Below are positions 1,499-16,896 of a DNA stretch of 29,426 nucleotides, piece after piece. How positions within the stretch are numbered: the stretch's first letter is position 1; every line of letters starts with the position of its first letter. Below the pieces are notes generated by a model. That model was not told the origin of the DNA, did not search any database, and saw nothing but the letters and a program-made list of their open reading frames with translations. The position numbers were made by a program, and so were the translations under genes. The stretch lies in the IMG/VR virus record IMGVR_UViG_3300025759_000472, positions 1 to 29,426 of that record. The stretch is one strand, 5' to 3'. This DNA comes from a virus.

Positions 1499-1546
1499 AA
1501 ATGTACCAGACTTTAAGATTAACGCAACAACAAAATGTACCGTCAA
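1499..1546 (-). promoter_or_regulatory. Leftward early promoter with two AATGTACC boxes
   Basis: AATGTACC occurs at 1500-1507 and 1534-1541, 34 bases apart. Reading leftward, TTGACG (complement of 1541-1546) abuts the upstream box, and TACATT (complement of 1500-1505) in the downstream box fits a -10, with TTGCGT (complement of 1522-1527) as a weak -35 at 16 bp. Which pair is used is uncertain. The promoter would drive the zinc-ribbon gene and the micro-gene cluster; boxes overlapping both elements suggest repression. Confidence 0.65.
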
Positions 1547-1971
1547 TTAAAATAATTTGCTTCTCGCTCTAGGTCTTCTGGCGGAACTCCGAGGACGCGA
1601 GAAATCACTAAGATTGCGTGTTCGTAAAACGGCTCAAATTCTTTTTGATCCATGCTCTCAAAGTTTATTGATTTCGGTATTTTCCACGCGCCCTTTTTAG
1701 TCTGCACAACATCGTAATGGCCACCGGATATTTTAATGGCACCGAGAAGACCCTCTATCGTGGTCGGCTCATCCCCCGGCCAGTTGTCTATGGCGATCTT
1801 CAATAGGGCAAATAGCTTTTTATGGTGCTGTAGGTTGCGAGGGCGGCGAGGCTCGATCATTACGCCTTGGTTAAGTTTTGTCTTCCCTAGCCAGTTTAGC
1901 GCATCAGGGCAGTCAGGGACGAGGCATTCTGTCCCGTGGATCAGTGTCTTTTTCCAAAGCGTCTTGCTCAT
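1543..1971 (-). CDS. DUF1367 family phage protein
   Basis: 142 residues. The hallmark is RPRNLQHHKKLFALLKIAID (about residues 43-62), characteristic of the DUF1367 family found in early or Nin-like regions of many proteobacterial phages, followed by an ISGGHYDVVQTKKGAWKIPK segment and a C-terminal helix. The biochemical role of the family is not established. Its ATG overlaps the TGA of the HNH gene (ATGA, 1968-1971), so the two are translationally coupled. The C-terminus reaches into the operator region of the next promoter (TTGACG at 1541-1546). Confidence 0.8.
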   Translation of the reverse strand: MSKTLWKKTLIHGTECLVPDCPDALNWLGKTKLNQGVMIEPRRPRNLQHHKKLFALLKIAIDNWPGDEPTTIEGLLGAIKISGGHYDVVQTKKGAWKIPKSINFESMDQKEFEPFYEHAILVISRVLGVPPEDLEREANYFN

Positions 1972-2297
1972 CGCTTTAGCTTTGCTCTGTGTGGCGACTT
2001 GGCGGCAAACTCTTCGGCCAACGCTTTCATGTCAATAAAATGCCGTTCTTCAAACGGCCTTTCCCCAACGCTGTGTTGTTCGGCGTGATGATCTTGGCAC
2101 AGGCTAATGACCCAGCAGTCGTCTGGCTTCATACCCATACCGCCACCCGTTCCGGTCCTAACGTGAGCCGCTTCGACCGGTAGCTTGTTGCAGCCGGGAA
2201 CGCAGCAATGATGCTCTCGGACCCATTTGAGATGGGCGGGGCATCGTATGCGTTTTTCTCTGGTCGGCGATGCGTCTTTTATTTTACGGGGTAGCAA
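1968..2297 (-). CDS. HNH-type nuclease-like protein (DUF968/Ref-like)
   Basis: About 109 residues from a TTG start at 2297, placed 7 bases after GGAGGG; the reading frame stays open to 2312, but its first TTG lies on the Shine-Dalgarno itself. The motif order is CxxxC-like CCVPGC (about 31-36), AAHVR (about 43-47), then SLCQDHHAEQH (about 65-75), the Cys/His arrangement of HNH/beta-beta-alpha-metal nucleases such as DUF968 and P1 Ref. These act in phage recombination or junction processing, consistent with its place downstream of SSB, exonuclease and annealing protein. Activity is inferred; the exact subfamily is uncertain. Confidence 0.75.
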   Translation of the reverse strand: MLPRKIKDASPTREKRIRCPAHLKWVREHHCCVPGCNKLPVEAAHVRTGTGGGMGMKPDDCWVISLCQDHHAEQHSVGERPFEERHFIDMKALAEEFAAKSPHRAKLKR

Positions 2298-2318
2298 TAT
2301 GGTTCCCTCCAAATAAAT

Positions 2319-2343
2319 GCCGGGGTATTAATCCCGCCCCGGC
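2319..2343 (-). terminator. Possible weak intrinsic terminator after SSB
   Basis: Perfect 7-bp inverted repeat GCCGGGG (2319-2325) and CCCCGGC (2337-2343) with an 11-base loop. On the leftward transcript it is followed by ATTTATTT, a broken U-rich tail, then the ribosome site of the HNH gene. It could attenuate transcription between the recombination genes and HNH/DUF1367. The 2313-2421 gap has no credible start codon. Confidence 0.45.
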
Positions 2344-2421
2344 TCGGGCGGTTTAGGGGTCAACGGCGGTTTAACAGAACTCGCCTTCGGCGCTTTCGCT
2401 ATCCTCTCCCCTTGCCAATAT

Positions 2422-2868
2422 CTAAAACGGAATTTCGTCGTCCAGATCGGGCGGCGGCTGGGTGCTGTTACCCTTGGCCTCGTTGTGGCTGTCCATAGGC
2501 TTTTGAGCGCCACCTTGCCCGTCCAGCATTACGAGAGAACCCCCAAAACCCTGCACGACAATCTCGGTGGTGTATTTCTCAACGCCTGAGTTGTCGGTCC
2601 ATTTCCGCGTTTGAAGTTTACCTTCGATATAGACCTTGCTGCCTTTCTTCAGCCATTTCTCAGCGACGGATGCCACCCCCCCGTTCTGACCGTCCCATAG
2701 TGTGACACGGTGCCATTCGGTGCGTTCTTTCTTTTCGCCCGATTGCTTGTCCGTCCATCGCTCACTGGTGGCGACGGATAGGTTGGCGACCTTCCCACCG
2801 TTCTGTGTCGAGCGAACCTCGGGATCATTTCCAAGGTTGCCAACGATGATGACTTTATTGACGCTCAT
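2422..2868 (-). CDS. ssb: Single-stranded DNA-binding protein
   Basis: 148 residues of bacterial-type SSB. The OB-fold covers about residues 1-110: [20 protein letters not shown], then [33 protein letters not shown] and YTTEIVVQ. A Gly/Gln-rich linker follows, ending in the acidic tip DLDDEIPF, the conserved partner-docking tail. It coats ssDNA and recruits repair and replication proteins in the cytoplasm. It is the last gene of the ERF-YqaJ-SSB recombination module, starting one base after the exonuclease stop. Length and ends match the family; this is one of the most secure calls here. Confidence 0.97.
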
Positions 2869-2869
2869 T

Positions 2870-3487
2870 TTATTCCCCTTTCAGAAGGCTGAGAGCATAG
2901 TCTCTTGTTTGCATGATGCTGTCCAAGGCCGCATCAAGGGTGGCCATGTATTTCTCGTTTGGTTCGATCTTGGCCGCAACGAGAGGGCATTTTGGGCAAT
3001 AGAACACAAGGTCGCACCATGCCCGTCCAGCGACAAGCATCTGGCCCATGACTTGTGGGATGTACTTGTCATCGATCTGACGATCCTGTTCCCACTTGAG
3101 CAGAGCAGCCATGTACCCGTCAGGCTTGAGGCACTTAATCTCAATCATGCCATCGTCGCCGATCAGACCATCAGGCGAGCATCCCCTGCCTTTGTCGTCA
3201 GTGATGAACCCGACCTCTCGGACATCGACATCATAGACTAGGCCATATTGCGCTCTAGCCTCGTCCTCAAGTTCCTTACCGCGCTCCATCCATTCTGATT
3301 GGAAGAAGTCTCCACAGGTTTCCCCGGTAAAAATTTCGTATGCCAGCTTGCCCGCAAACTTTGTCGATTGCGTTGACAACTCGCCCTTCTTTGGCGTGAC
3401 GGCTTTGTCGTATTCTGAGGCTGTCGGCACACCCAAACGTAGGGCGTACCACTCGTCACTGCGTTGCTCGACGTTATGAATTTTCAT
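2870..3487 (-). CDS. YqaJ-type (lambda Exo-like) recombination exonuclease
   Basis: 205 residues from ATG 3487, preceded by GGAGAG; an ATG at 3520 is in frame but overlaps the ERF gene more deeply. Motifs of the lambda-exonuclease/YqaJ nuclease fold: [17 protein letters not shown] (about 8-24), [11 protein letters not shown] (about 68-78), then [17 protein letters not shown] (about 103-119) giving catalytic Asp106, Glu116 and Lys118, and [20 protein letters not shown]. It resects double-stranded ends 5' to 3' so that the partner annealing protein encoded just upstream can load. The pair forms a phage SynExo system. The stop is two bases from the SSB start. Confidence 0.92.
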
Positions 3488-4082
3488 CTTGGCTCTCCAC
3501 TGCTTTGACCTTTTGCTCAAGTTTATTCATGGCGTCAGCGAATTTGTCCATCGGCAGGTGGGACAAATCCTCAATGCCGTATGCTTTCAAGAAGCGGTCC
3601 TTGTTGGCTCCGGTGGCTTCGATCTTTTCTTCAAGCACCACCAGCAGACTGTCGCCGATCAATTTGCTCTCAGCCTCTGCTGCTTCAAGGTGAGGGTCTT
3701 CCTCTGCGGCAATACAGGCTAAAGCGCAAAGCGCAGTGCGTCGAGCCGAAGTGACGTTGGCCATCATCTTGATGGGGTTGTTGTTGTCGCCAGGGATGGG
3801 CGATCTGTTGGTCACCGATGCGCCACCAGTGTGCGTAAGGGTGGTGTCAAGTAACGTGATCCCACCATCAACCGTAACCGATTGCACAATCCCGATCCCG
3901 TTGGCCGAGAAGACTTTACGGACAGTGTTTGAGATTTCCGCAAGGTCAGCGTACTTCGACTTGAAGTGCGGGTTGGTGCGGTTGAACTGTGCGTTTTTAA
4001 CCTCGGCCTGAGCTTTGGCGATGGCTGCGTTCATCGCCTTAGCTGCAAGCCACCGCTCTTTTTCGATATTAAAGTCACTCAT
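3474..4082 (-). CDS. erf: ERF-family single-strand annealing protein
   Basis: 202 residues. The conserved ERF core spans about 10-140: AIAKAQAEVKNAQFNRTNPH, FKSKYADLAEI, TVRKVFSANGIGIVQSV, then MMANVTSARRTALCALACIA. The C-terminus (about 150-202) is a charged, helical region probably used for oligomerisation or partner contact. ERF proteins pair complementary single strands during phage recombination and circularisation, replacing RecA. The gene opens the annealase-exonuclease-SSB operon; its 3' end overlaps the exonuclease start by 14 bases. Confidence 0.93.
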   Translation of the reverse strand: MSDFNIEKERWLAAKAMNAAIAKAQAEVKNAQFNRTNPHFKSKYADLAEISNTVRKVFSANGIGIVQSVTVDGGITLLDTTLTHTGGASVTNRSPIPGDNNNPIKMMANVTSARRTALCALACIAAEEDPHLEAAEAESKLIGDSLLVVLEEKIEATGANKDRFLKAYGIEDLSHLPMDKFADAMNKLEQKVKAVESQDENS

Positions 4083-4093
4083 GTTTCTTCTCC

Positions 4094-4372
4094 TTAATTG
4101 CTGTGAAGCGCGGCGGCGATGTCGGCAGGGACATCTGCGGCGCAGTGATATTGATGACGGTATGCGCGACCTTCCGAAGCCCAGCCTTCATGGGTCTTGT
4201 GGTATTTCAGCGTCTCGCGCATGTCGGAAACAAAAACCGGACGATCACCGCGAGAGCCAATTCGATCACGGAACACGACAACATCCCGACCGGCGAGAGT
4301 GTCCATTGTGACATTGACCACGATGATTTCCGGGCCTTTATGCCGAAGGGCATTTTTGATTGCTGCGTTCAT
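4094..4372 (-). CDS. Early hypothetical protein (92 aa)
   Basis: Starts MNAAIKNALRHKGPEIIVVN at 4372, after AGGAG in the shared early leader (4381-4400); the in-frame ATG at 4423 lies inside the promoter and is rejected. Predicted alternating beta strands (EIIVVNVTMD, DVVVFRDRI, RPVFVSDMR) suggest a compact alpha/beta or beta fold; the second half is His/Tyr-rich. It sits first in the transcript leading into ERF, exonuclease and SSB. Unlike the neighbouring cassette it lacks the stop hairpin. No family recognised. Confidence 0.75.
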   Translation of the reverse strand: MNAAIKNALRHKGPEIIVVNVTMDTLAGRDVVVFRDRIGSRGDRPVFVSDMRETLKYHKTHEGWASEGRAYRHQYHCAADVPADIAAALHSN

Positions 4373-4380
4373 TATGTTTA

Positions 4381-4400
4381 CTCCTGTTTGCGTTGTTGAT
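4381..4400 (-). repeat. Early leader repeat, copy 3
   Basis: Complement reads ATCAACAACGCAAACAGGAG, then TAAACATA before the ATG at 4372. The core matches the copies at 1475, 4735 and 8036, but the bases between Shine-Dalgarno and start differ. Confidence 0.85.
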
Positions 4401-4407
4401 GTCTTGG

Positions 4408-4450
4408 AATGTACCGCAAGCATCAGGTGGGTGTCAAATGTTTTTGTACC
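4408..4450 (-). promoter_or_regulatory. Leftward early promoter of the recombination operon
   Basis: Consensus TTGACA (complement of 4432-4437), 18-bp spacer, TACATT (complement of 4408-4413) as -10. The -10 lies inside an AATGTACC box at 4408-4415; a variant TTTGTACC lies at 4443-4450, 35 bases away. A protein on the proximal box would block polymerase. It drives 4094-4372 and probably ERF, exonuclease and SSB. Confidence 0.75.
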
Positions 4451-4485
4451 ACCAGCCCGTGCCTGTTTCGGTCACACATGACAGG

Positions 4486-4500
4486 GGCGCTTACTGCGCC
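4486..4500 (-). other. Stop-codon hairpin, copy 2
   Basis: On the complement: GGCGC, loop AGTAA, GCGCC, followed by CCTGTC. The TAA of 4491-4727 is in the loop, as in the other three copies. It lies between this gene and the next leftward promoter. Confidence 0.75.
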
Positions 4501-4727
4501 GCTGCCTTTTCCCGAATAACTTCAAAATTGAAAGCCCCCTTGCGCTCCACTATCAACCGCACCGGGCCTTCGGTTGCGTTGAAAAGTTTCCGGGCCTCTT
4601 TAATAGCCTCGGATTTCGTCTGGCACCAAATCGGCTCGTCCGTATCCATGCCATTTTCGTCCCATCGGCAAACATCCCATGTGTCTCCGGTGCTACATAC
4701 TGCAATTTCATGCAATTGGTTATCCAT
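4491..4727 (-). CDS. First leftward early protein (78 aa, DUF2188-like?)
   Basis: Begins MDNQLHEIAVCSTGDTWDVC at 4727 after GGAG of the conserved leader; an upstream in-frame ATG at 4790 lies within the operator region and is rejected. The pattern of a WDV strand, PIWCQTKSEAIKEARKLF helix and VRLIVER strand resembles small DUF2188-type domains, a weak impression only. It ends EKAAAQ over the stop hairpin. It is nearest the divergent hub and should be the first leftward transcript expressed after infection. Host-takeover or regulatory roles are possible but unproven. Confidence 0.75.
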   Translation of the reverse strand: MDNQLHEIAVCSTGDTWDVCRWDENGMDTDEPIWCQTKSEAIKEARKLFNATEGPVRLIVERKGAFNFEVIREKAAAQ

Positions 4728-4734
4728 CTGTTTT

Positions 4735-4753
4735 CTCCGTTTGCGTTGTTGAT
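4735..4753 (-). repeat. Early leader repeat, copy 4
   Basis: Complement reads ATCAACAACGCAAACGGAG, continuing AAAACAG to the ATG at 4727. Identical in its 19-base core to the copy at 1475-1493. Confidence 0.85.
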
Positions 4754-4758
4754 GATGT

Positions 4759-4787
4759 AATGTACCAAAGGTTAAATAGCTTGTCCA
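4759..4787 (-). promoter_or_regulatory. Leftward promoter of the divergent hub
   Basis: TGGACA (complement of 4782-4787) and TACATT (complement of 4759-4764) are separated by exactly 17 bp. The -10 lies inside the AATGTACC box 4759-4766 and a second box (4794-4801) lies just upstream of the -35. It would start the leftward early programme at 4491-4727. Confidence 0.75.
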
Positions 4788-4828
4788 CAAAAAAATGTAC
4801 CTTGGCAGAATTTTTTTTTCGGTGTACC
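4759..4828. promoter_or_regulatory. Three-site operator array of the divergent hub
   Basis: AATGTACC at 4759-4766 and 4794-4801 and the variant GGTGTACC at 4821-4828, all in one orientation, spaced 35 and 27 bases. The array spans promoters for both directions and lies immediately before the Cro-like gene 4837-5067. Three graded sites between divergent early promoters recall lambda oR/oL. The binding protein is not shown by sequence; the adjacent HTH protein is the obvious candidate. Confidence 0.7.
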
Positions 4829-4830
4829 AA
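4802..4830 (+). promoter_or_regulatory. Rightward promoter of the HTH gene (possibly leaderless)
   Basis: TTGGCA (4802-4807), 17-bp T-rich spacer, TACCAA (4825-4830). The -10 is poor, but the initiation point would fall near 4837, the ATG of the regulator, and there is no Shine-Dalgarno before that ATG. The -10 overlaps the third box (4821-4828), suggesting autoregulation. Confidence 0.45.
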
Positions 4831-4836
4831 TCACTA

Positions 4837-5067
4837 ATGAAAAACGAACCTTGGCATCCTCATGGCCACGCCATTGAGAAGGTCGGGTCAACGCTGGCGG
4901 TTGCGGCGTTGCTCGGCGTCATCCCACAGTACGTGAGCAAGTGGAAGCGGAGAGGCATCCCGACACACAGGCTGCGCGATTTTATTAAGGCGGCGAAGCG
5001 TGTCGGTGTGCGGCTTGATCTGGAGGAACTAAAACGTGCCAAGCAAGTACCGAAACAAAAAGACTGA
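4837..5067 (+). CDS. Cro/YdaS-like helix-turn-helix regulator (76 aa)
   Basis: Start chosen at the ATG giving MKNEPWHPHGHAIEKVGSTL; an in-frame ATG at 4795 lies inside an operator box and also lacks a ribosome site. HTH at about residues 15-45: AIEKVGSTLAVAALLGVIPQ followed by YVSKWKRRGIPTHRL, i.e. two helices, a GV turn, a recognition helix with a basic end, and the GIP step typical of Cro/YdaS repressors. No oligomerisation or peptidase domain, so it resembles Cro rather than a full CI repressor. It is divergent from the left operon, beside three operator boxes, and its 3' end overlaps the next gene by 32 bases. It probably controls the AATGTACC promoters (inference). Confidence 0.85.
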   Translation: MKNEPWHPHGHAIEKVGSTLAVAALLGVIPQYVSKWKRRGIPTHRLRDFIKAAKRVGVRLDLEELKRAKQVPKQKD

Positions 5068-5359
5068 GGTTGATGGCATCGTCTTCGACAGCAAGGCCGA
5101 GGCCAAGAGGTATCAGGAATTGAAACTCTTGGAACGGGCGGGGGTAATAACTCACCTTCAGTTACAGCCAGAATATAAATGCATCATCGACGGCAAGCTG
5201 GTCTGCAAGTACAGGGCAGACTTTCGATATATCGACCACGAAAGGCAATGCACTGTCGTTGAGGATGTGAAGGGATACAGGACTGACGTTTATCGGTTGA
5301 AGAAAAAACTGGTCGAGGCTCTGTACCCTGGGACAGTGATTGAGGAGATATCAAAATGA
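5036..5359 (+). CDS. DUF1064 family predicted nuclease
   Basis: 107 residues from a GTG at 5036 with GGAGG ten bases upstream. Begins MPSKYRNKKTEVDGIVFDSK, then AEAKRYQELKLLERAGVI, the DUF1064 signature. YRADFRYID (about 59-67) and VVEDVKG (about 74-80) supply a PD-(D/E)xK-like Asp62, Asp77 and Lys79. The family is common in phage replication/early regions and is predicted to be a DNA endonuclease; the substrate is not established. It overlaps the regulator at its 5' end and the next gene at its 3' end (ATGA), so all three are one operon. Confidence 0.85.
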   Translation: MPSKYRNKKTEVDGIVFDSKAEAKRYQELKLLERAGVITHLQLQPEYKCIIDGKLVCKYRADFRYIDHERQCTVVEDVKGYRTDVYRLKKKLVEALYPGTVIEEISK

Positions 5360-5850
5360 GCGAAATAGTTCTAAGCGCCGCAGAGATTATTCATGGCGCA
5401 CAAGCTGGCGTGATGCGTCGAGTGAATAATATCAAAAACAATCGGCATCAAAAATATGGGGCTGATGCCTATGACGCCTGGACGATGGATATAGAGGGCG
5501 CACTTGGTGAGATGGCCCTCGCTAAATATCTCGGCGTATACTGGGAAGGCTATGGAATTAAGGCGGGATCAGACGTATCCGGCGATGATGTTCGCACCAC
5601 TAAGTACAGCAATGGCAGATTGATTATGCACCCGGACGATCACGATGACCGGAGGTATTGGCTCGTCACGGGTCAGAGTGGAGCCTACAATATACGCGGC
5701 TGGATTATGGGATATGACGGCAAACACTCAGATTACTGGGAAGACCCGCAAGGAGGGAGGGCTGCTTATTTCGTACCCCAATCTCGCTTATACAAAAAGC
5801 CCCCGGCACTAGGCCGAGGGCTGAGTTACAGGGAGGAAACATCCAAGTGA
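5356..5850 (+). CDS. Phage protein with possible restriction-endonuclease-like fold
   Basis: 164 residues, start MSEIVLSAAEIIHGAQAGVM coupled to DUF1064 by ATGA. The middle has an ordered pattern: EGALGEMALAKYLG (about 47-60), GSDVSGDDVRTTKYSNGRLI (about 71-90), then YWLVTG and GWIMGY strands. An acidic helix residue, a DV turn and a charged strand are what PD-(D/E)xK-like phage proteins show, but the Lys is not clearly placed, so the fold is tentative. The last about 17 codons run through a GC-rich hairpin (5798-5822), and the C-terminus is otherwise low in conserved features. Function unknown. Confidence 0.75.
   Translation: MSEIVLSAAEIIHGAQAGVMRRVNNIKNNRHQKYGADAYDAWTMDIEGALGEMALAKYLGVYWEGYGIKAGSDVSGDDVRTTKYSNGRLIMHPDDHDDRRYWLVTGQSGAYNIRGWIMGYDGKHSDYWEDPQGGRAAYFVPQSRLYKKPPALGRGLSYREETSK
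5798..5822. other. GC-rich hairpin inside the 3' end of 5356-5850
   Basis: Nine base pairs with one C-A mismatch around loop ACTAG: AGCCC-C-CGGC against GCCG-A-GGGCT. On the plus transcript there is no U-run; on the minus transcript five T residues follow. It may be a leftward terminator, or a residual bidirectional one now inside a coding frame. Confidence 0.4.
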
Positions 5851-5896
5851 TGTATCGAGTGGGATGCTCGATCCTGGTATTGTTGCATAAAAAAGT

Positions 5897-5925
5897 TTGT
5901 ACGCAACACAAAATTTTGATATAGA
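5897..5925 (+). promoter_or_regulatory. Candidate rightward promoter for replication genes
   Basis: TTGTAC (5897-5902), 17-bp AT-rich spacer, TATAGA (5920-5925) in an extended TATAGAAT. The -35 overlaps TTTGTACG, a weak relative of the early operator, and is flanked by the inverted repeat GTTGC (5882-5886) and GCAAC (5903-5907). It would start an approximately 95-base leader before the replication protein. Confidence 0.55.
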
Positions 5926-5945
5926 ATTTTTGCGGCGAAAAAAGC

Positions 5946-6009
5946 ATCGGCTCGCTACCGATGTCGGCTTCGCACTCTCAGCCCGTCGCCCCCTTTTTTT
6001 TGAGAGTGC
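5946..6009 (+). ncRNA. Structured 5' leader, possible attenuator
   Basis: Three inverted repeats lie between the candidate promoter and the ATG at 6030: ATCGG/CCGAT (5946-5950, 5958-5962), the overlapping CCGA/TCGG (5958-5961, 5964-5967) that excludes the first, and GCACTCTCA/TGAGAGTGC (5972-5980, 6001-6009; 9 bp, 20-base loop ending in a T-run). Mutually exclusive hairpins suggest attenuation or translation control. The ribosome site is the weak GAGAG just after the last stem. No named RNA family recognised. Confidence 0.4.
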
Positions 6010-6029
6010 ATAGATGAGAGAGTGACATC

Positions 6030-6539
6030 ATGACACCAGAGTTCCGTGACAGCGCCGAATACGCTTTGCAGAGATTGGTTCGCCAAGTCATCCGCAAAAA
6101 CAAAAACCTTTCCGCCCACCAGCGAAACATCCTTATCGCAATCTGCAACGATTGGTTCTTTCATAAAAACGGTCCAAAAAAGCACATTCACCCCGGCAGA
6201 AAGCGACTTGCCAAAAAAGCCAACACCACGGTCATAACCGTCGCCAGAGCCTTAAAGCTATTTCGAGAGGCTGGTATTGTCCATGTTGTGGCAAGGCCAA
6301 GAGGCGAGGGCCAGAAGCCAACTCAATATGTTGTTGATGAAGTTGCTATCCTTAAATTCTGTGGCTGCGATATCCCCGAAACAGTGTCAGCGGCAATCAT
6401 AGAATTCCCCCAAAATGATACACCACTTGTCCCGCCAAATGATACACCACTGGCGTATCAAAATGATACACAGTATAAGGGTGTAAACACCCACCGTTGC
6501 CAGAGTGAGGTTATTTGTTTTTCGGAGTATAACCGATGA
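6030..6539 (+). CDS. Winged-helix replication initiator-like protein
   Basis: 169 residues. The N-terminal two-thirds is a winged-helix domain: YALQRLVRQVIRKNKNLSAH, RNILIAICNDWF, then HPGRKRLAKKANTTVITVAR and ALKLFREAGIVHVV (recognition helix and wing). This is the plan of O-type phage replication proteins and related initiators that bind iterons. The C-terminal part (about 127-150) reads as three NDTP-like repeats because the DNA beneath is three 24-bp iterons. It precedes a helicase (ATGA overlap) and, further on, a primase, giving a replication module. The helicase-loader type C-terminus is not evident. A purely transcriptional role is possible. Confidence 0.75.
   Translation: MTPEFRDSAEYALQRLVRQVIRKNKNLSAHQRNILIAICNDWFFHKNGPKKHIHPGRKRLAKKANTTVITVARALKLFREAGIVHVVARPRGEGQKPTQYVVDEVAILKFCGCDIPETVSAAIIEFPQNDTPLVPPNDTPLAYQNDTQYKGVNTHRCQSEVICFSEYNR
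6413..6471 (+). repeat. Three 24-bp iterons, candidate replication origin
   Basis: AAATGATACACCAC at 6413-6426 and 6437-6450, and AAATGATACAC at 6461-6471, exactly 24 bases apart. They lie inside the coding region of the winged-helix protein, as lambda origin iterons lie inside gene O. A palindrome follows at 6479-6492. Origin function is inferred. Confidence 0.65.
6479..6492. repeat. Perfect palindrome beside iterons
   Basis: GGGTGT, AA, ACACCC: a near-uninterrupted 14-base dyad starting 8 bases after the third iteron. It could be a further binding site at the origin or an operator for the initiator. Confidence 0.5.
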
Positions 6540-8005
6540 ACATGATCCGTACCGAGAAGACGCTTCGCCCTTACCAAGAGGATGCGATCAACAAACTCAG
6601 ATCATCTTTTGGCACCGGCAATAAGAAGGTTGTGATGCAAGGCGCAACAGGTTTTGGGAAAACACTTGTAGCAGCAAAGATCATCCAAGGAGCCTTGGCT
6701 AAGGGGAACAGGGTAGCCTTTACCGCACCAGCGATCACTCTCATCGATCAGACCGTTAGCGCATTTGAGGCAGAGGGTATCTACGACATCGGCGTGATGC
6801 AGGCAAACCACCCGCGAACGAACATGATGGCAAAGGTTCAGGTCTGTTCTCTGCGAACACTGGCACGGCGTGATGGCATGCTGCCGCCTAGCCTGATCAT
6901 CGTGGACGAGTGCCACATCCAAGACGAGATGATCCCGAAAATGATGGAGACGTATCCCGATGCATATTTCGTCGGCCTGAGCGCGACACCGTGGGCTAAG
7001 GGCATGGGGCTGCTTTGGGATGATCTGGTGGTGTCGGCTACGATTGGCGATCTGATTAAGCAGGGATACCTGTCAGAGTTTAGAGCGTTTGCTCCTAGCG
7101 TTCCCGATCTAACGGGCGTGAAAAAAATGGCCGGTGATTTCAACGAGAAGCAGTTGGAAGAGGTCATGCGGGATAAGAAGCTGGTCGGCGATGTTGTGCA
7201 GACATGGCTTGAGAAGGGCGAGAATAGGCCAACGCTGTGCTTCGGCGTGAACCGCGCCCATGCGGGTATGCTCAAGGGTGCCTTTGAGGCTCACGGCATT
7301 TCTGCGGCCTACTGTGACGCCTTCACAGACAGGATTGAGATGAAGGGGATTGAGCGGGACTTTCGCAATGGTGATGTCTCCGTGGTTTGCTCAGTACGCA
7401 AGATTACGACCGGCGTTGATTGGCCAGTTGGATGCATCATAGACGCGGCCCCCACGATGAGCGAGATGCTGCACGTTCAGAAGATCGGTCGAGGGCTGCG
7501 GGTAAACCCAGGCACCGAGGATTTGATTATTCTGGATCACGCCAGCAACAGCCTTCGCCTTGGTCTGGTAACGGATATCCACCATAGTGAGTTGGACGCT
7601 ACACCGAAGGGAGAGAGGCAGCAGAAGACGACGAGCGAGAAGCTGCCGAAGCCTTGCAGCAAGTGCGGTGTTCTTCACACGGGCCTGATATGCCCAGCCT
7701 GCGGCCATGAGAAAAAGCCTGTGGCCGGGGTTGATGTCGAGGACGGAGAACTGCGCGAGGTCGGCGGGAAGGAGAAAAAGGATCGTTGGACTAAAGAGGA
7801 TAAGCAGCGGTTCTGGTCGATGGCCTTGCATCTTGATGACAGCAGATCGAAGCACGGGAAGCTGGCGAAGGCGTTGTACAAGTCTCGGTTTGGCGTATGG
7901 CCGAAAGGCATAGAAGACGCCAGAATTGTACCGGATCAGGCTTTTATGAATTACGAAAAGTCCCGGCGGATAGCGTATGCGAAGAGGATGCAAAAAAATA
8001 GTTGA
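6536..8005 (+). CDS. Superfamily 2 DNA helicase with C-terminal zinc finger
   Basis: 489 residues. Motifs in order: LRPYQEDA (about 10-17), Walker A GATGFGKT (36-43), DECH box (124-127), SATP (149-152), TTGVDWP (291-297), motif VI QKIGRGLR (315-322). This is the DEAD/H, type III restriction/UvsW-like helicase arrangement. A C4 zinc finger follows, CSKC (374-377) and CPAC (386-389), then a charged C-terminal region. It presumably unwinds DNA at the phage origin or recombination intermediates, using ATP. It overlaps the initiator stop by ATGA, and its end contains the -35 of the next promoter. Family call is secure, precise role inferred. Confidence 0.9.
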   Translation: MNMIRTEKTLRPYQEDAINKLRSSFGTGNKKVVMQGATGFGKTLVAAKIIQGALAKGNRVAFTAPAITLIDQTVSAFEAEGIYDIGVMQANHPRTNMMAKVQVCSLRTLARRDGMLPPSLIIVDECHIQDEMIPKMMETYPDAYFVGLSATPWAKGMGLLWDDLVVSATIGDLIKQGYLSEFRAFAPSVPDLTGVKKMAGDFNEKQLEEVMRDKKLVGDVVQTWLEKGENRPTLCFGVNRAHAGMLKGAFEAHGISAAYCDAFTDRIEMKGIERDFRNGDVSVVCSVRKITTGVDWPVGCIIDAAPTMSEMLHVQKIGRGLRVNPGTEDLIILDHASNSLRLGLVTDIHHSELDATPKGERQQKTTSEKLPKPCSKCGVLHTGLICPACGHEKKPVAGVDVEDGELREVGGKEKKDRWTKEDKQRFWSMALHLDDSRSKHGKLAKALYKSRFGVWPKGIEDARIVPDQAFMNYEKSRRIAYAKRMQKNS

Positions 8006-8030
8006 CGGCAAAAATGTACCGCGCTACTAT
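8002..8030 (+). promoter_or_regulatory. Rightward early promoter with operator in the spacer
   Basis: TTGACG (8002-8007), spacer of exactly 17 bp, TACTAT (8025-8030). AATGTACC occupies 8013-8020, midway between the elements, where bound repressor would exclude polymerase. It drives the cassette gene 8063-8299 and possibly the primase. Confidence 0.8.
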
Positions 8031-8035
8031 GCATC

Positions 8036-8055
8036 ATCAACAACGCAAACGGGAG
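8036..8055 (+). repeat. Early leader repeat, copy 5
   Basis: ATCAACAACGCAAACGGGAG followed by ACGACAG and the ATG at 8063. The same leader as on the opposite strand at 1475-1493, with one extra G. Confidence 0.85.
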
Positions 8056-8062
8056 ACGACAG

Positions 8063-8299
8063 ATGATTAAGCAAAGCGGATTAACGGAATACACTGAAAT
8101 GGTAATCGAGGAAGCCGGTCACGATCTTGCGGAGTTCGTCAACTGGGTCGCTAACGAGTGGAGCGACGGGTATTGCCAGTATCTTTGCACCGAAGCCGAC
8201 ATCGAAGTCGGTAAGCACATGCAGCACGCCAAGGACTTTTTGAACGATAACGCGACGGCGATCCTTGCAGATTACCGGAAACAGGCAGCGGCGCAATAA
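8063..8299 (+). CDS. Early cassette protein, acidic (78 aa)
   Basis: Starts MIKQSGLTEYTEMVIEEAGH; mostly helical and acidic (DLAEFVNWVANEWSDGY, then HMQHAKDFLNDNATAILADY), ending QAAAQ. Complete cassette: promoter with AATGTACC, conserved leader and stop hairpin. Its coding sequence is unrelated to 913-1467 and 4491-4727 except in the last few codons dictated by the shared 3' DNA. Strong acidity is a common trait of phage proteins that bind host enzymes or mimic DNA, but there is no direct evidence here. Confidence 0.8.
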   Translation: MIKQSGLTEYTEMVIEEAGHDLAEFVNWVANEWSDGYCQYLCTEADIEVGKHMQHAKDFLNDNATAILADYRKQAAAQ

Positions 8300-8304
8300 G
8301 CGCC
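8290..8304 (+). other. Stop-codon hairpin, copy 3
   Basis: GGCGC, loop AATAA with the TAA stop of 8063-8299, GCGCC, then CTGCC. Identical to the minus-strand copy at 908-922. Confidence 0.75.
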
Positions 8305-8325
8305 CTGCCGGAAGGGGATAATGAC

Positions 8326-11321: not shown

Positions 11322-11332
11322 TATGTCTTGAC

Positions 11333-11346
11333 CCGCTGAGAAGCGG
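11333..11346 (+). other. GAGA-tetraloop hairpin between terL and portal
   Basis: CCGCT, GAGA, AGCGG: a perfect 5-bp stem with a GNRA loop, 11 bases after the terL stop. No U-run, so probably a processing or stability element rather than a terminator. Confidence 0.4.
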
Positions 11347-11370
11347 CATTGCCCATTGGTGGAATAGCAC

Positions 11371-13602
11371 ATGGCTGAAATGAAAGATCACGAACTCTTG
11401 GCAATGGTGCGGCGGGAAAGCCAAGCCGCGCAGTCTTATATCACTTCCGAGATTTCCCAAGACCGCGAAGATGCGATGGACCGCTATTTTGGGCGGGATT
11501 ACGGCGACGAGCAAGCGGGCCGCTCCAAAGTTGTGATGCGTGATGTCCTGGAAACTATCGAGTGGGTTATGCCCTCTCTGCTTCGCATTTTTGTCTCTGG
11601 CGACGATATTGTTAGCTATGATCCAGAAGGGCCAGAAGATGAGCAATTTGCAGAACAAGCCACAGACCTCGCCAACGTAGTTTTCTATAAAGACAACAAC
11701 GGTTTCTTAATCCTCCACACTTGGTTTAAGGACGCGCTCCTACAGAAGATGGGTGTTGTCAAATCTTTTTGGGACGAGAGCGAAGTAACCAAACGTGAAA
11801 CTTACACCGACCTTGATGCTCAGACTTTCGTCGCCCTTGTGTCGCCCGATAACGTGGAGGTGGTCGAGCATACAGAGCGCACCCTTGACGGAGAAGAGTA
11901 CCAAGAGCCGGAAGAAGAAGATGAAGACGGTTTAATCCTGTTTGATCGACCGCAGACAACACACGATGTTACGCTTATCAAGACGCAAGAAAAGCAGCGG
12001 ATTGTTATTGAGAACATCCCTCCTGAAGAATTTTATATGTCGTATGACGCGGCAGACCCAGACAAGGCAAGGTTCCTAGAACATAAAGTCCAGAAGACCC
12101 GCAGCGACCTTATCAGCGACGGCTTTGATAAAAAGCTGGTAATGATGATCCCCGGTATGCACGAGGATGACGAGAACGGGGAAGCCCAGGCTCGTCACGG
12201 TTCTGCTATCACTGGCCGCGATGACGCAGCAGACCCGATGATGGAAGAGGTCGAGCTACACGAGAGTTACCTGTACGTTGACACTGATGGTGACGGCGTG
12301 GCCGAGTGGACCCGCGTGTTGTGGGGTGGCTCTATGATCTTGGAGCGCGACCAAGTGGATAAGCAACCGTTCTCGGTTGTCTGCCCCATCCTTATCCCCC
12401 ACCGCGCCTATGGCTTGTCCCTGGCCGACTTGATTATGGATTTGACCCGCATCCGTACCGTTATTATGCGTCAGACGCTTGATAGCCTATATCTTGCGAA
12501 CAACCCGGAGAGAGAAGTTGACGTTAATAAGATCGTTGATATGGATGATTTCCTCACGACTCGCTCGGGCGGAATTAAGCGTGTCGAACAAATTGGTGCG
12601 AGCCGCGAAATTGCACATCCTTTTGTCGCCAAAGAGAGTTTCGCAATGCTGGACGGGTTGGATGCGCTAGAGACTAAGCGCACTGGCGTCTCTGATATGG
12701 CGATGGCGGTTGATGCTGAAATCCTCCAGAACCAAACTGCTACTGCATCCAACAACGGCATGGCTGTGAAGAACCAGCGTGTCGAAATGATTGCCCGCAT
12801 CTTTGCGGAGACGGGCGTTAAACACCTATTCCGTCGCATTCTCCATTTACTCGTTGAGAACCAGACTAAAGAGCGTGTTGTCCGCATCCGCAATGAGTGG
12901 GTGCCTATGAACACAAACGGCTGGAACCCTGAGATGGATGTCAGCATCAATGTTGGCCTTGGGCATGGCTCCCGTGACCAGCAGATGATGTTCTTAAACG
13001 GGCTTTTACAAATCCAGAAAGACCTCATCCAATCGCCACAGATGCGGATGGTCAGACCTAAACACGTTTACAATACGGTTGAACAGTTGACGCGGAATAT
13101 CGGGTATAAAAACCCCGACAAGTTCTTTGACGACCCTGGCGACCAGCCGATTGAGATGCCGCAACCTGGGCCTGATCCGAATGAGATGATGATCCGGGCG
13201 CAGATGCAAATTGAGCAACTAAAGGCGCAAGTTGCTATGCAGAGGGCACAGCTAGATAACGAGAACACCGACAACAAGCTGCGTCTATCGCACCACGAGG
13301 CAATGCAGAAGTTGGAACTCGAAAGCGAGCGGCTTGAGATTGAGCGCGAGAAGATTGCCGCCAGTATGCAAGAGGTGGCCGCTAAAATTAGAAGCGACGA
13401 GGCGAAGGCGGCAGCGCAGCTTGAGGCTAACGCGCAGAAAGTTCTATCGGAGAAAGAAGAAAAAGAGCGGGACCGCGAGTCGAACGCTATGGAAAGGGAA
13501 CGTGAACGTGCGGCGCAGATTGAGGCTGCTAGGTCTAGAACATCTCGCAGCGTTAGCGTCGAGCGTAACGAAGACGGCTCTTTAAGCGGGAGCATTGATT
13601 AG
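11371..13602 (+). CDS. Portal protein, P22 gp1 type
   Basis: 743 residues, near the 725 of P22 gp1. N-terminal region EISQDREDAMDRYFGRDYGD, KVVMRDVLETIEWVMPSLLR and IFVSGDDIVSY is diagnostic of this portal family. The core includes IVIENIPPEEFYMSYDA and CPILIPHRAYGLSLADLIMD; DMAMAVDAEILQNQTATASN precedes the stem/crown. From about residue 595 to 725 there is a long charged coiled coil (barrel-like C-terminus). Twelve copies form the unique vertex through which DNA enters and leaves. It follows terL with a 49-base gap and a GGTGG ribosome site. Confidence 0.95.
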   Translation: MAEMKDHELLAMVRRESQAAQSYITSEISQDREDAMDRYFGRDYGDEQAGRSKVVMRDVLETIEWVMPSLLRIFVSGDDIVSYDPEGPEDEQFAEQATDLANVVFYKDNNGFLILHTWFKDALLQKMGVVKSFWDESEVTKRETYTDLDAQTFVALVSPDNVEVVEHTERTLDGEEYQEPEEEDEDGLILFDRPQTTHDVTLIKTQEKQRIVIENIPPEEFYMSYDAADPDKARFLEHKVQKTRSDLISDGFDKKLVMMIPGMHEDDENGEAQARHGSAITGRDDAADPMMEEVELHESYLYVDTDGDGVAEWTRVLWGGSMILERDQVDKQPFSVVCPILIPHRAYGLSLADLIMDLTRIRTVIMRQTLDSLYLANNPEREVDVNKIVDMDDFLTTRSGGIKRVEQIGASREIAHPFVAKESFAMLDGLDALETKRTGVSDMAMAVDAEILQNQTATASNNGMAVKNQRVEMIARIFAETGVKHLFRRILHLLVENQTKERVVRIRNEWVPMNTNGWNPEMDVSINVGLGHGSRDQQMMFLNGLLQIQKDLIQSPQMRMVRPKHVYNTVEQLTRNIGYKNPDKFFDDPGDQPIEMPQPGPDPNEMMIRAQMQIEQLKAQVAMQRAQLDNENTDNKLRLSHHEAMQKLELESERLEIEREKIAASMQEVAAKIRSDEAKAAAQLEANAQKVLSEKEEKERDRESNAMERERERAAQIEAARSRTSRSVSVERNEDGSLSGSID

Positions 13603-13727
13603 TGGTTGAACAGGTTAAAGAGAGTTTCATTCCTGTTGCTGGAACGCAAACAAACCTAGAGACTATTGAAGTCACCAATGATCGCGGCGAAAAAGTCCAC
13701 CGCGAAGCCGTTTTTATGGGCGGCTAA
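13602..13727 (+). CDS. 41-aa micro-protein downstream of portal
   Basis: GTG start overlapping the portal stop (TAGTG) with GGGAG ten bases upstream. Product begins MVEQVKESFIPVAGTQTNLE and ends with EKVHREAVFMGG. VHREAV-type endings occur in small virion-operon proteins of other phages, as far as I recall. Without it there would be a 138-base coding gap in a very compact operon. Role unknown; a minor capsid or assembly factor is possible. Confidence 0.65.
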   Translation: MVEQVKESFIPVAGTQTNLETIEVTNDRGEKVHREAVFMGG

Positions 13728-13956
13728 CGGTGCATTGACCATGGGGCTTCTTAACGACACACCAGCGCAGGGGCTTTTGTCTGAGATGAACCGCACTGAC
13801 GCGATGCGTCGGGCGAGGCACCGCTCATTCCAACAGACTGGCGGGACGCCTTGGGTTGATATTGCGAACGGCGTCTTAGGCATGATTGCGGAGCCTATTG
13901 AGGCAATGAAGGCTGATGCAATGGCGCAGTATTACGGGATGCCATCAACAGGGGAA
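13727..13956 (+). repeat. Duplicated 5' module, copy 1
   Basis: Covers the junction ACGGTGCATTGAC and the first about 72 codons of 13741-15135. It is closely similar at DNA level to 15135-15363; protein similarity continues weakly to about residue 105. A tandem duplication followed by C-terminal replacement explains it. Confidence 0.85.
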
Positions 13957-15135
13957 ATCCCGAAAAACATTATCCAAGGTATTGGGGGTGCTGGTTTAAG
14001 CGCGGGGGCTTTGGGGCTTCGCCTCATGCCGCGTGGGGCGTTGGCGGCTAACGTGTGGCAGGGTTCGCCGCACAAGTATGGCCCTGAAGGTGCGCGTGAA
14101 TCGCTCAAGCATATCGGCAAGGGCGAAGGCGCTCAGGCTTACGGTTGGGGCCGGTATGATGCGGGGGCGCAGAGTGTCGGGGAACAGTATAAGCGCGCTC
14201 TACAGCGGGGTTTCGAAACAGCCGACGAGGCCGCTGGATTGTATCTAAAGGAAATGGGCGGGGACCGGCTATCTGCACTTGCTGCAATGAAAGACCACGC
14301 TCGCGGCGGATTAGGGTATTCTGCAAAGGAAAACGCAGCATTGCGAGATGGGATTAAACTCCTAGAGAGCGGGGCGGATGTACCTGATGTGGAATTGGGC
14401 TACCTCTACAAGCACGACCTCCCTGACGAGGACATAGCGCGTTATATGGATTGGGATGCGCCGTTGAGTGAGCAGCCGGAGAGTGTGCAGATTGCTTTAG
14501 GGTTAAAGCGGGACGCTGCCCGTGATGCTCAGATCAATAAACGCCTGAACGAGATTGACGCTGAAATGAAAGCGAACGCACCAAAGGGCGACACATACGA
14601 CGATCTTTTTGGTGATAATGGCGGTGATATTGATTGGGCGGCATTGCAGATGGAAAAGTCTGCGCTTGAGCGAGAGATAAATAATCAATCTGTTTTTGAC
14701 GTTCTGGGTAATGTCAGTCCTGACCAAGTAACGGGTCGGTGGCTTTACGAAGAATTGATGAACAGGAATGGTGCTATTGATTGGCCTTTAGACGCCACGG
14801 CAGACATGAGGGCGGCAGCAAGAGGCTCTAGTAGACAAGCCGCCTCCGAAGCCCTCGCCCGCGCTGGCATCCCCGGCCTTAAATACTATGACGGATCAAG
14901 CAGAACGGCAGCATCCCCGAAGGTTGTTAAGGCAGATGACGGGTATGATGTTTTTTGGGGAAATGACCCGCGCCCCGTTGATAGGTTTAAGACTAAAGCG
15001 GAAGCCGAAGCGGTGGCGGCGGAAATTGATGGCAGAACCCGAAACTACGTCACCTGGGACCAAGACGTTCTGAACCGCATGAAGTTGCTGGAGCGGAACG
15101 GTGAGCCTATGGGACTTTTGGATACAGTGGAATGA
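13741..15135 (+). CDS. Probable virion-delivered protein with ART-like domain
   Basis: 464 residues from ATG 13741 (the frame opens earlier but the paralogue shares this start and its upstream bases). Residues 1-105 are the shared module (MGLLNDTPAQ, RARHRSFQQTGGTPWVDI, GMIAEPIEAM). From 106 the protein resembles ADP-ribosyltransferase-like domains of phage polyvalent proteins: WQGSPHKYGP (106-115), GEGAQAYGWGRYDAG (128-142), then GIPGLKYYDGSSR (376-388) and RNYVTWDQDVL (434-444). The usual His of HGS is Gln here, so activity is uncertain. Residues 389-433 interrupt the conserved SR...NYV junction with a small insert. Placement between portal and scaffold suggests packaging and injection. Confidence 0.7.
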   Translation: MGLLNDTPAQGLLSEMNRTDAMRRARHRSFQQTGGTPWVDIANGVLGMIAEPIEAMKADAMAQYYGMPSTGEIPKNIIQGIGGAGLSAGALGLRLMPRGALAANVWQGSPHKYGPEGARESLKHIGKGEGAQAYGWGRYDAGAQSVGEQYKRALQRGFETADEAAGLYLKEMGGDRLSALAAMKDHARGGLGYSAKENAALRDGIKLLESGADVPDVELGYLYKHDLPDEDIARYMDWDAPLSEQPESVQIALGLKRDAARDAQINKRLNEIDAEMKANAPKGDTYDDLFGDNGGDIDWAALQMEKSALEREINNQSVFDVLGNVSPDQVTGRWLYEELMNRNGAIDWPLDATADMRAAARGSSRQAASEALARAGIPGLKYYDGSSRTAASPKVVKADDGYDVFWGNDPRPVDRFKTKAEAEAVAAEIDGRTRNYVTWDQDVLNRMKLLERNGEPMGLLDTVE

Positions 15136-15363
15136 CGGTGCATTGACATGGGACTGCTTAACGACACACCAGCGCAGGAATTGCTTGCGGAGCGTAACCG
15201 TTTCGATGTGAGGCGTCGGGCGAGGCACCGCTCATTTCAGCAGACGGGTGGCACACCATGGGTTGATATTGTCAATGGCGTTTTAGGCATGATTGCGGAA
15301 CCTATCGAAGCAATGAAGTCTGACGCAATGGGTCAGTATTACGGTGAGCCTTCCTCGGGTGAA
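15135..15363 (+). repeat. Duplicated 5' module, copy 2
   Basis: Second copy of the ACGGTGCATTGAC junction and first 72 codons, beginning at the stop of the first paralogue. Many third-position differences from copy 1 indicate that the duplication is not recent or was acquired by recombination with a relative. Confidence 0.85.
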
Positions 15364-16686
15364 GTCACGAAGAACTTGATTGCGAATATTGGTGGCACAG
15401 GTCTGGCCGCTATGTCCGGCCTACGGATGATGCCTGAAGGGATTTTGGGCGCAAATGTTGGTGGTAAGATTGCTCCAGCAAAAATCGGCCAAGGTAAGAG
15501 TTTTTTAGATGATGAAGTGGCGCTAGGGTTTGATGATGCCGTCAGGGCGCGGCGTAATTATTTTGATGAACAGAGCCGCATCTCAAGAGAGGCTTTAGAG
15601 AAAGCCGAAGACCCGTCAAACAAAAGAGTGGTTGGCACGAAGCCTTCGTATGGCGGCACTTTCGGTGGCGATAAAGTTATCCCGCTTGAGCGGCAACGCG
15701 CATATGACGCTGGGCTTGTGACGGAAGCGCACCCTAAAGCGGCTGACTTCATACAAAACACGCTTCCGGTTGAGGCGTTTGAGGGGCGAAGATTTGTCGC
15801 TCTCCCTGGCGATCAAACAGATGTCGCGCAAATTAAGCGGGTGATGGGGAAGGATGTTGACGAAGAAAACCTTGGCGGGTCACTCAATTCGCTGTTCGGG
15901 GAGGGCTGGCAATCGGGTCGCGTTAAGATGAACCCCTTGGCAAAGGTTGTTGAAAAGTTTGACGATGAAGAAGTTTTAGGTTCGTTTTTGACGATGGGCG
16001 GGGCATCAAGTGACTTTCAGCCAGTGACATCGCGTCTGCTTTCTGCTGTTGCAGACCCAGAGGCAATTTCAAAAGAAGGCGCGGCGGTCATTGATAAACT
16101 TGTGAGGTTAAACAAAAACGCAAAAGGCGAGCTAAAATTTGCAGGGTATCCGGGGGTTAAGTCTTCTGAATTTGCGCCTTGGCTTCTTGGCCTGTCAAAT
16201 ACAAAAAGATCAGGGTTTTTGAAGGCTCTTACAAAATTTCCAGCGGCGCTTAAGGATGAAGTGCCAACAGGCATGGCACCATATGAGTTGATACCGGGAT
16301 TTGACATCCCCGCTGTGCGTCACGCAATTACTCGTCCAGAGATGAGAAATAAGATACTGCATCCGAGTGACCCGTCGCTTGGAGACGTTAACTTCTTCCA
16401 GCAGGGCGGAAAATTGCGAAAATCTTCCGAAATAGGGACGCCACATGATGCGTTTGACCTTGCCCTCCCCGGTGGCAGAGAGGGAGAGTTTGAGAAGTCG
16501 TTTGAATATCCTATGAGCCTGTTGTTTGATGACTATATAGCCGATAGGCGTGCAGTCGGGTCCACAGGAAATGATTTCAGCCCGCTATTTATGAATATGC
16601 TTAATGTTGATGAGCCTGTTTCAGTCATGACACCAGAGAAAGTGGAGCGATTTAAACGGTACGAAAAGATTTGGAATGAGCGTTAA
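15148..16686 (+). CDS. Paralogue sharing N-terminal module, unknown C-terminal domain
   Basis: 512 residues. Residues 1-105 match the preceding protein (MGLLNDTPAQ, RRARHRSFQQTGGTPWVDIV). The remainder is unrelated to it: a linker with DDAVRARRNYFDEQSRISRE, GGTFGGDKVIPLERQRAYDA, LSNTKRSGFLKALTKFPAAL, VRHAITRPEMRNKIL and HDAFDLALPGGREGEFE. The TKRxxFxKAL...R.AIT.PxMR pattern recalls large polyvalent-protein-associated domains, without certainty. A role as an internal virion or injected protein is inferred from the shared module and location. Its TAA shares TTAA (16683-16686) with the stop of the convergent gene. Confidence 0.7.
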   Translation: MGLLNDTPAQELLAERNRFDVRRRARHRSFQQTGGTPWVDIVNGVLGMIAEPIEAMKSDAMGQYYGEPSSGEVTKNLIANIGGTGLAAMSGLRMMPEGILGANVGGKIAPAKIGQGKSFLDDEVALGFDDAVRARRNYFDEQSRISREALEKAEDPSNKRVVGTKPSYGGTFGGDKVIPLERQRAYDAGLVTEAHPKAADFIQNTLPVEAFEGRRFVALPGDQTDVAQIKRVMGKDVDEENLGGSLNSLFGEGWQSGRVKMNPLAKVVEKFDDEEVLGSFLTMGGASSDFQPVTSRLLSAVADPEAISKEGAAVIDKLVRLNKNAKGELKFAGYPGVKSSEFAPWLLGLSNTKRSGFLKALTKFPAALKDEVPTGMAPYELIPGFDIPAVRHAITRPEMRNKILHPSDPSLGDVNFFQQGGKLRKSSEIGTPHDAFDLALPGGREGEFEKSFEYPMSLLFDDYIADRRAVGSTGNDFSPLFMNMLNVDEPVSVMTPEKVERFKRYEKIWNER

Positions 16687-16841
16687 CGCATGATCCCAAG
16701 CACATCAGCGACTTCAAACAAAAAATCTTTTATTTCTTGTTCGCTTTTCGCGTCAACGGTTATGCCAGCCCATAGTGGCGGCACGATTTCGGCGAACCAT
16801 TCTTCGCGCTCGTCCTGTCCCATCTCGTCGAATTTTGCCAT
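16683..16841 (-). CDS. Reverse-oriented 52-aa moron-like gene
   Basis: The only leftward gene in the late region. ATG at 16841 after a strong AGGGAGAG; product starts MAKFDEMGQDEREEWFAEIV and is acidic and helical (SEQEIKDFLFEVADVLGIMR). It has its own promoter with an AATGTACC box just upstream (16863-16896), the early-type control. Its stop codon overlaps that of 15148-16686 in opposite orientation. This is the profile of a moron: a self-contained accessory gene expressed out of phase with its surroundings. Function unknown; anti-defence or superinfection roles are possible guesses. Confidence 0.7.
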   Translation of the reverse strand: MAKFDEMGQDEREEWFAEIVPPLWAGITVDAKSEQEIKDFLFEVADVLGIMR

Positions 16842-16862
16842 TTTATCTCTCCCTAAATTGAC

Positions 16863-16896
16863 GGTACATTGTATAGAGTTGACGGCATAGACGCAA
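16863..16896 (-). promoter_or_regulatory. Promoter and operator of the reverse gene
   Basis: TTGCGT (complement of 16891-16896), 17-bp spacer, TACAAT (complement of 16868-16873; 5 of 6 to consensus). The -10 is followed directly by GTACC, so AATGTACC (complement of 16863-16870) overlaps the -10 and start region. TTGCGT is also a possible -35 at the 1.5 kb promoter. Confidence 0.7.

Follow-up and report, generated by a model that had tools for sequence, protein, structure and literature searches.

A short, apparently asymmetric box and a widespread leader at the predicted early promoters of an uncultured tailed phage

We analysed the whole of the IMG/VR virus record IMGVR_UViG_3300025759_000472 (the window; 29,426 bp, linear, and possibly incomplete or a fragment) with respect to two short elements at its predicted promoters: the eight-base box AATGTACC, and a 20-base leader, ATCAACAACGCAAACGGAG, which stands behind four box-bearing promoters and leads into an ATG. 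The window belongs to a tailed phage, encoding SSB, a YqaJ exonuclease, an ERF annealing protein, a DEAD-box helicase and a Toprim primase, together with an Sf6-type small terminase, a portal and a NinB/Orf protein. A megablast of positions 1-12000 against the phage collection returned no match, and neither did a search of the window in Rfam at gathering score. A previous, sequence-only reading of this DNA had proposed that a single transcription factor acts through the box to coordinate all early promoters and one isolated late-region gene.

An exact word scan finds the seven copies of AATGTACC at precisely the coordinates given in that reading, where 0.48 would be expected from dinucleotide shuffling and where the highest count in any of 100 shuffles was 3. 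When one mismatch is allowed, 18 copies are found against 16.1 expected, which is no enrichment, so that the exact word alone is what stands out. According to our coding map, in which gene starts were set by the analyst and the last gene (28480-29424) is an open reading frame (ORF) running off the end, 28,008 of the 29,426 bases are coding and 1,418 are noncoding. All seven boxes fall in this small noncoding fraction and none touches coding sequence, an outcome with a probability of about 6e-10 under uniform placement, or 2e-8 if the open-ended ORF is counted as noncoding; the earlier proposal that the copies are intergenic, and not equally frequent in coding DNA, is thus borne out. The remaining TGTACC words (3112, 5322, 7927, 14379, 22844, 23572) are inside coding intervals and look like background. 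As a side observation, a weak direct partial repeat lies at +15 of the box, for which no claim is made.

The boxes, the promoters in which they sit and the genes that these promoters face are as follows.

1500..1507, plus strand: proximal AATGTACC box of the leftward promoter PL1, reading GGTACATT toward the leftward gene 913-1467; predicted -10 TACATT, -14 to -7; promoter assigned by eye
1534..1541, plus strand: distal box of PL1, 34 bp upstream of the 1500 box, -48 to -41
4408..4415, plus strand: proximal box of PL2, covering the -10 of TTGACA-18-TACATT, leftward gene 4094-4372
4443..4450, plus strand: distal box of PL2, variant TTTGTACC, 35 bp upstream of 4408, -50 to -43
4759..4766, plus strand: proximal box of PL3, covering the -10 of TGGACA-17-TACATT, leftward gene 4491-4727; kept in the relatives L125, L092 and L126
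4794..4801, plus strand: distal box of PL3, 35 bp upstream of 4759; relative to the predicted regulator promoter, about -43 to -36
8002..8030, plus strand: rightward promoter TTGACG-17-TACTAT, after the helicase gene; kept in the relatives L092, L126, L131, L129 and L133
8013..8020, plus strand: box in the spacer of the 8002 promoter, -23 to -16
8063..8299, plus strand: first gene of the 8002 promoter; other genes instead in L133 and in L092/L126/L131/L129
16863..16870, minus strand: late-region box at -9 to -2, overlapping TACAAT, the predicted -10 of the gene 16683-16841 (reversed); also in L429 and L430
16683..16841, minus strand: 52-residue ORF with no assigned function; L430 protein 96% identical

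The three leftward early promoters, PL1, PL2 and PL3, follow one plan, with two boxes each, 34, 35 and 35 bp apart, one of the six being the variant TTTGTACC at 4443. The proximal box reads GGTACATT on the coding strand and supplies, in its TACATT, the predicted -10, and the distal box is located upstream of the predicted -35. The promoter TTGACG-17-TACTAT with a box in its spacer, described in the sequence-only reading, is present at 8002-8030 and kept in relatives, and a consensus scan recovers sigma70-like promoters at 4408, 4759 and 8013; those at 1500/1534 and 16863 (leftward, TTGCGT-17-TACAAT) were assigned by eye only, so that the placement of every box on such a promoter stood in part. 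A search of the phage collection with the protein of 16683-16841 gave no match. Since TACATT serves as the -10 in three leftward promoters, and the leader was copied too, one could speculate that GGTACATT is merely a -10 preferred by the phage and copied with duplicated promoter cassettes, with nothing binding to it. We consider this distinctly improbable: the distal copies lie elsewhere, as do the boxes at 8013 (in the spacer) and 16863, orientation varies, and the distal box is exact between relatives although its flanking bases change.

To this conservation we now turn. Close relatives were found by protein comparison, and 12 relative records were searched for the box, of which 7 carry at least one exact copy (those without are L128, L132, L134, L135 and L139). 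One contig, L095, is near identical to the window, while in L125, L092 and L126 the helix-turn-helix (HTH) protein encoded next to PL3 is 77% and the helicase 68-72% identical. In these three the 4759/4794 pair persists, spaced by 35 bp as in the window and within the same promoter plan (TTGACC being the -35 of PL3), in the midst of much changed intervening sequence. At the 8013 promoter, AATGTACCGCGCTACTATGC-ATCATCAACAACGCAAACGGGAG is kept in L092, L126, L131 and L129, and the box and leader are kept with small changes in L133. The motif is therefore found upstream of orthologous loci at the 4759/4794 pair and at the 8013 site. Both TGTACC variants pointed out previously, at 4443 and 4821, are real, and the former keeps the 35-bp spacing of its pair; the latter is poorly conserved, being retained in the near-identical L095 and not in L125, L092 or L126. 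The 16863 box recurs in L429 and L430, a weak test of conservation because both are too similar to the window, and none of the relatives found at 16936-18216 is distant enough to provide a strong one. Among viral contigs, GGTACATT-N3-9-TCAACAACG occurs in 28, and only three of these (L089, L092, L095) are promoter-like, so that the regulon appears, on the basis of these matches, to be limited to one lineage.

The protein most likely to bind the box is encoded next to PL3.

4837..5067, plus strand: Cro/YdaS-like HTH protein of 76 residues, candidate box binder by family matches, divergent from PL3
4802..4836, plus strand: predicted regulator promoter TTGGCA-17-TACCAA, by eye; -35 at 4802-4807, -10 at 4825-4830
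4821..4828, plus strand: variant GGTGTACC, lying across the regulator promoter's predicted -10

The product of 4837-5067 is a small single-domain protein with a lambda-repressor-like HTH. It matches the Pfam family YdaS_toxin (PF15943) above and P22_Cro below the cut-off, PHROG families of DNA-binding proteins and repressors, and the sequences of Xfaso 1 Cro (3bd1, E 0.0019) and XPH1 (5w8y, E 0.0026). An AlphaFold model, built on an alignment of five rows, has five helices and a mean pLDDT of 82.5, and Foldseek retrieves with it 3bd1 (Xfaso 1 Cro, at rank 3), P22 Cro and restriction control proteins, all with E-values of 0.3 or more. Despite the toxin label in Pfam, the YdaS of CP-933P is argued, in the accessible text of PMC8630535, to act as an analogue of Cro, binding in the region of the divergent promoters. 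Boxes 4759 and 4794 occupy the gap between 4727 and 4837, the regulator's own divergent promoter region, and are kept there in relatives; relatives with the box have an unchanged HTH core, and homologues only 27-31% identical have a different one. Family, divergent position and boxes at its own promoter thus make this protein the likely binder. Its predicted promoter, at whose position the relatives have TTGAAT-17-CTATAT, ends 7 bases before the ATG at 4837, so that the transcript is predicted to start at the ATG, and no Shine-Dalgarno sequence (SD) was seen by eye in 4802-4839. The regulator mRNA is therefore possibly leaderless, unlike that of cro and as reported for lambda cI and CP-933P paaR2 (available portion of PMC8630535).

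Two other candidates for the binding protein have to be weighed. A second HTH protein, 6030-6539, exists in the window (HTH_Crp_2, E 7e-4, below the family cut-off), and it or some other phage protein might bind at the boxes, which could act for example as iterons in replication. Against this stand its similarity to replication initiators (PHROG 8102), its identity of just 31% to the counterparts in L092, L125 and L212 while the box is unchanged, and the distribution of the boxes over five separate promoter regions with no single array, which together make this explanation very improbable. Alternatively, the phage could have borrowed the site of a host transcription factor, as would suit boxes that sit in promoters with sigma70-like hexamers. 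This is unlikely, given that the boxes flank the phage's own HTH gene, that they are kept along with an unchanged HTH core, and that box plus leader is promoter-like in only three close relatives among the 28 contigs.

All four box-bearing early promoters run into the same element, ATCAACAACGCAAAC(G/A)GG(G)AG, followed by ATG, a common leader that the sequence-only reading had overlooked.

1468..1493, minus strand: PL1 leader ATCAACAACGCAAACGGAGACGACAG, before the ATG of 913-1467
4373..4400, minus strand: PL2 leader ATCAACAACGCAAACAGGAGTAAACATA, before the ATG of 4094-4372
4728..4753, minus strand: PL3 leader ATCAACAACGCAAACGGAGAAAACAG, before the ATG of 4491-4727
8036..8062, plus strand: rightward leader ATCAACAACGCAAACGGGAGACGACAG, before the ATG of 8063-8299

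The leader extends far beyond this lineage. Its exact 16-mer TCAACAACGCAAACGG is present in at least 117 IMG/VR contigs (L008-L124), compared with 43 in all for the same letters backward, and 81 of the 117 contigs listed share no protein with the window at E 1e-4. The 121 matches listed, to which the following counts of leader contexts refer, gave 90 distinct contexts with full flanks after repeat removal. An ATG follows 4-14 bases downstream in 72 of these (8/42 for the backward control), and a sigma70-like promoter (at least 9/12, with the -10 ending 6-8 bases before the leader T) precedes 53, at exactly 7 bases in 40, against 0/42 in the backward control and 1.6% in shuffled DNA upstream of the leader. 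The 18 contexts without an ATG look like mostly chance coding matches. Distinct cases with leader, SD and ATG among the matches listed number 75 when the window, L125, L133 and a Hahella locus are included, and contain at least one evident chance match (L031, with an ORF of 5 residues); they comprise 28 promoter clusters and 57 clusters of downstream proteins, with A as the predicted +1 base in 68, and there are usually one or two leader copies per contig. In three contigs (L008, L040, L102) the leader is preceded by TTGCAA and then GCATGTGNGA, with no sigma70-like -10. In the largest promoter cluster (25/75 cases, within L009-L122), many spacers contain an inverted repeat such as TTCC...GGAA, which suggests that other, lineage-specific operators may occupy the same place. 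Lack of structure was considered as the point of the leader and dropped, as the median minimum free energy (MFE) of leader plus 30 coding bases, -3.8, is only slightly weaker than the -4.85 of shuffles.

Outside these contigs the exact leader is rare. Across 84,980 genomes of bacteria and archaea there is one copy of the 20-mer CATCAACAACGCAAACGGAG, at L216:74-93 in Hahella sp. HN01, before the ATG of an ORF of 38 residues. Searching 369 genomes of the same class with two mismatches allowed yielded matches in 17 (1 exact, 1 with one mismatch, 15 with two), and since the backward control matched in 12 genomes we make no bacterial claim beyond the Hahella copy. BLAST with a 33-mer found no full-length exact match in 50,697 phage records; variants of the leader stand before start codons that are annotated in phages POR1, RS51pmB, BrunoManser, IME-JL8 and PBb001. 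No description of such a leader was found in the literature by exact string or by concept, a search of open PMC text only, which leaves 'undescribed' unproven.

The leader also marks places where genes appear to have been exchanged. Behind the 8013 promoter and leader stand three different genes, one in the window and L095, one in L133, and one in L092, L126, L131 and L129. L125 differs from L126/L212 by one gene that lies between two leader copies, exactly so in the comparison of L125:1932-2206 with L212:130-152, where the inner L125 copy has no evident promoter. In several picked pairs the homology picks up again past the swapped gene, although the pairs were chosen for similar promoters and dissimilar genes, a choice that in itself partly favours breaks near the leader. 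The converse is seen in L038 and L114, whose promoters are unrelated and whose common gene is shared from position -3 of the leader on. In a fairer count over 93 contigs, themselves chosen for the leader (236 non-independent pairs; blocks of at least 300 bp and at least 75% identity), 68 of 401 right-hand ends of homologous blocks fall at the leader, compared with 2.1 expected by uniform placement. The first genes behind the leader rarely belong to described families: 53 representatives include 2 Pfam families (HicA toxin and GP88) and 10 PHROG families, each with one member. The HicA match is the gene at L067:5751-5936.

Taken together, these observations lead us to read AATGTACC as the operator of a phage regulator, and the leader as a portable start module and exchange joint, a reading to which we assign a probability of roughly 0.68. 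The regulator, most likely the 4837-5067 protein, would bind the boxes. At PL1-PL3 one box lies over the -10 and a second 34-35 bp upstream, past the -35, and binding there would therefore block RNA polymerase; the 8013 box would fill the spacer of its promoter, and the 16863 box would cover the -10/+1 region of the small reversed gene. Lambdoid regulators regulate themselves, and since the 4794 box is at about -40 of the regulator promoter, which faces away from PL3, the same may hold here. Transcripts from all four early promoters would begin with the constant leader ATCAACAACGCAAACGG(G)AG, which ends in a ribosome site. The notion of one factor acting on the phage's early genes is supported by the data, although its extension to all early promoters exceeds them, as the 179-bp gap upstream of the gene at 6030 has no box.

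Several results weigh against this reading. Sigma70-like sites in the scanned region number 12, compared with 14.3 in shuffles, so the consensus scan alone proves nothing, and the promoters assigned by eye at 1500 and 16863 match only weakly. Cro operators are usually palindromic, and around the box a second half-site is undetectable, the best inverted offset reaching just the 95% level of shuffles. L128, with a helicase 64% identical, lacks the 8013 box, no box precedes the 4094-4372 ortholog of L125, and the 1500/1534 promoter was found in none of the relatives fetched. Concerning the leader, a sample selected for TATAATNNNCACATCAAC only (109 distinct sequences among the matches listed, 73 with SD and ATG) contains many different A/C-rich leaders: with TATAAT and CACATCAAC fixed, most continuations among these matches are other leaders. 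Other SD-ATG starts are likewise enriched for block ends, with 60 against 11.3 expected. Both results would suit a leader shared through convergent selection for a good start and ribosome site, the homology breaks then reflecting whole-gene swapping. We regard this as a real possibility, somewhat short of an even chance. Against it, AACGCAA is the commonest continuation of TATAATNNNCACATCAAC, in 9 of the 73 listed cases versus 0.03 expected from composition, and the leader can thus be considered one common variant of a wider class of start regions. Furthermore, blocks reaching the leader end there in 87/149 cases, versus 127/539 at other starts, a contrast that is probably inflated, as the contigs were chosen for the leader (from the listed matches) and the pairs are non-independent.

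Our preferred reading of the leader as start module and exchange joint can be taken one step further. Tentatively, and at a little under even odds, we propose that ATCAACAACGCAAACGGAG is a 'socket' anchored at +1 of early mRNAs in many unrelated uncultured phages. Transcription start and ribosome loading would be constant, and the operator in front and the first gene behind would be exchanged, possibly with the help of phage annealing recombinases; the window itself encodes ERF, YqaJ and NinB/Orf.

Apart from these elements, the consecutive late-region ORFs 13666-15135 and 15148-16686 are about 76% identical over their first 105 residues and constitute a partial tandem duplication; L133 has two similar ORFs, also consecutive.

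The boxes recall the lambdoid immunity regions of the Cro/YdaS type (CP-933P YdaS, P22 Cro, Xfaso 1 Cro), in which a small HTH gene is divergent from an early operon and several operator copies extend over divergent promoters, an arrangement that is predicted here; for CP-933P YdaS, footprints on both divergent promoters are given in the accessible text of PMC8630535. Unlike in those systems, the box is short, has no detectable dyad, and recurs at a rightward promoter far away and at a gene of the late region. Asymmetric, intergenic repressor sites, several per genome, are described for the stoperators of Cluster A mycobacteriophages (PMC3029335, PMC6550527, PMC9283540). As far as the available parts of these sources go, stoperators are 13 bp long, number 24-34 per genome, lie mostly outside promoters in one direction and are bound by a two-domain repressor, whereas the window has 7 boxes of 8 bp, at promoters, in both directions, and a protein of 76 residues. 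The box regulon is accordingly a new, lineage-specific case of a known type with an odd, apparently asymmetric site, and the leader is the more unusual part.

In the portions of the literature available to us, the nearest published relatives of the leader are the Cluster K SAS and the boundary sequences of phage mosaics. SAS/ESAS are conserved sequences with a ribosome site before the start codons of unrelated genes, described as having no known function and as nearly absent from host genomes (PMC3203893, in part). Like SAS, the leader places a ribosome site a few bases before the starts of unrelated genes (the 57 protein clusters above). SAS differs in sequence, to judge from its printed consensus, is internal to one cluster and has many copies per genome, and the part of that source available does not mention a tie to promoters; the leader, in contrast, is located at the predicted +1 of promoters, in one or two copies per contig, in unrelated phages. 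For mosaic junctions, short shared boundary sequences and homologous recombination have been proposed; most junctions are without recognisable shared sequence (PMC3029335, in part). The leader resembles boundary sequences as a short shared stretch where neighbouring modules appear to be exchanged, and is distinguished from them in that the mRNA is predicted to begin with it, unchanged across phages with different promoters and operators.

For this uncultured lineage, the box defines a testable early regulon, probably governed by one Cro-like protein with an unusually short, apparently asymmetric site. The leader provides a concrete sequence with which to study the trade in early genes: a predicted 20-base mRNA start common to phages with different promoters, at which homology breaks far above uniform placement (in a sample chosen for the leader), and a tag for unfamiliar early proteins, few of them in known families. 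If the socket proposal is true, the leader would tag swappable early genes, mostly of unassigned function, in metagenomes.

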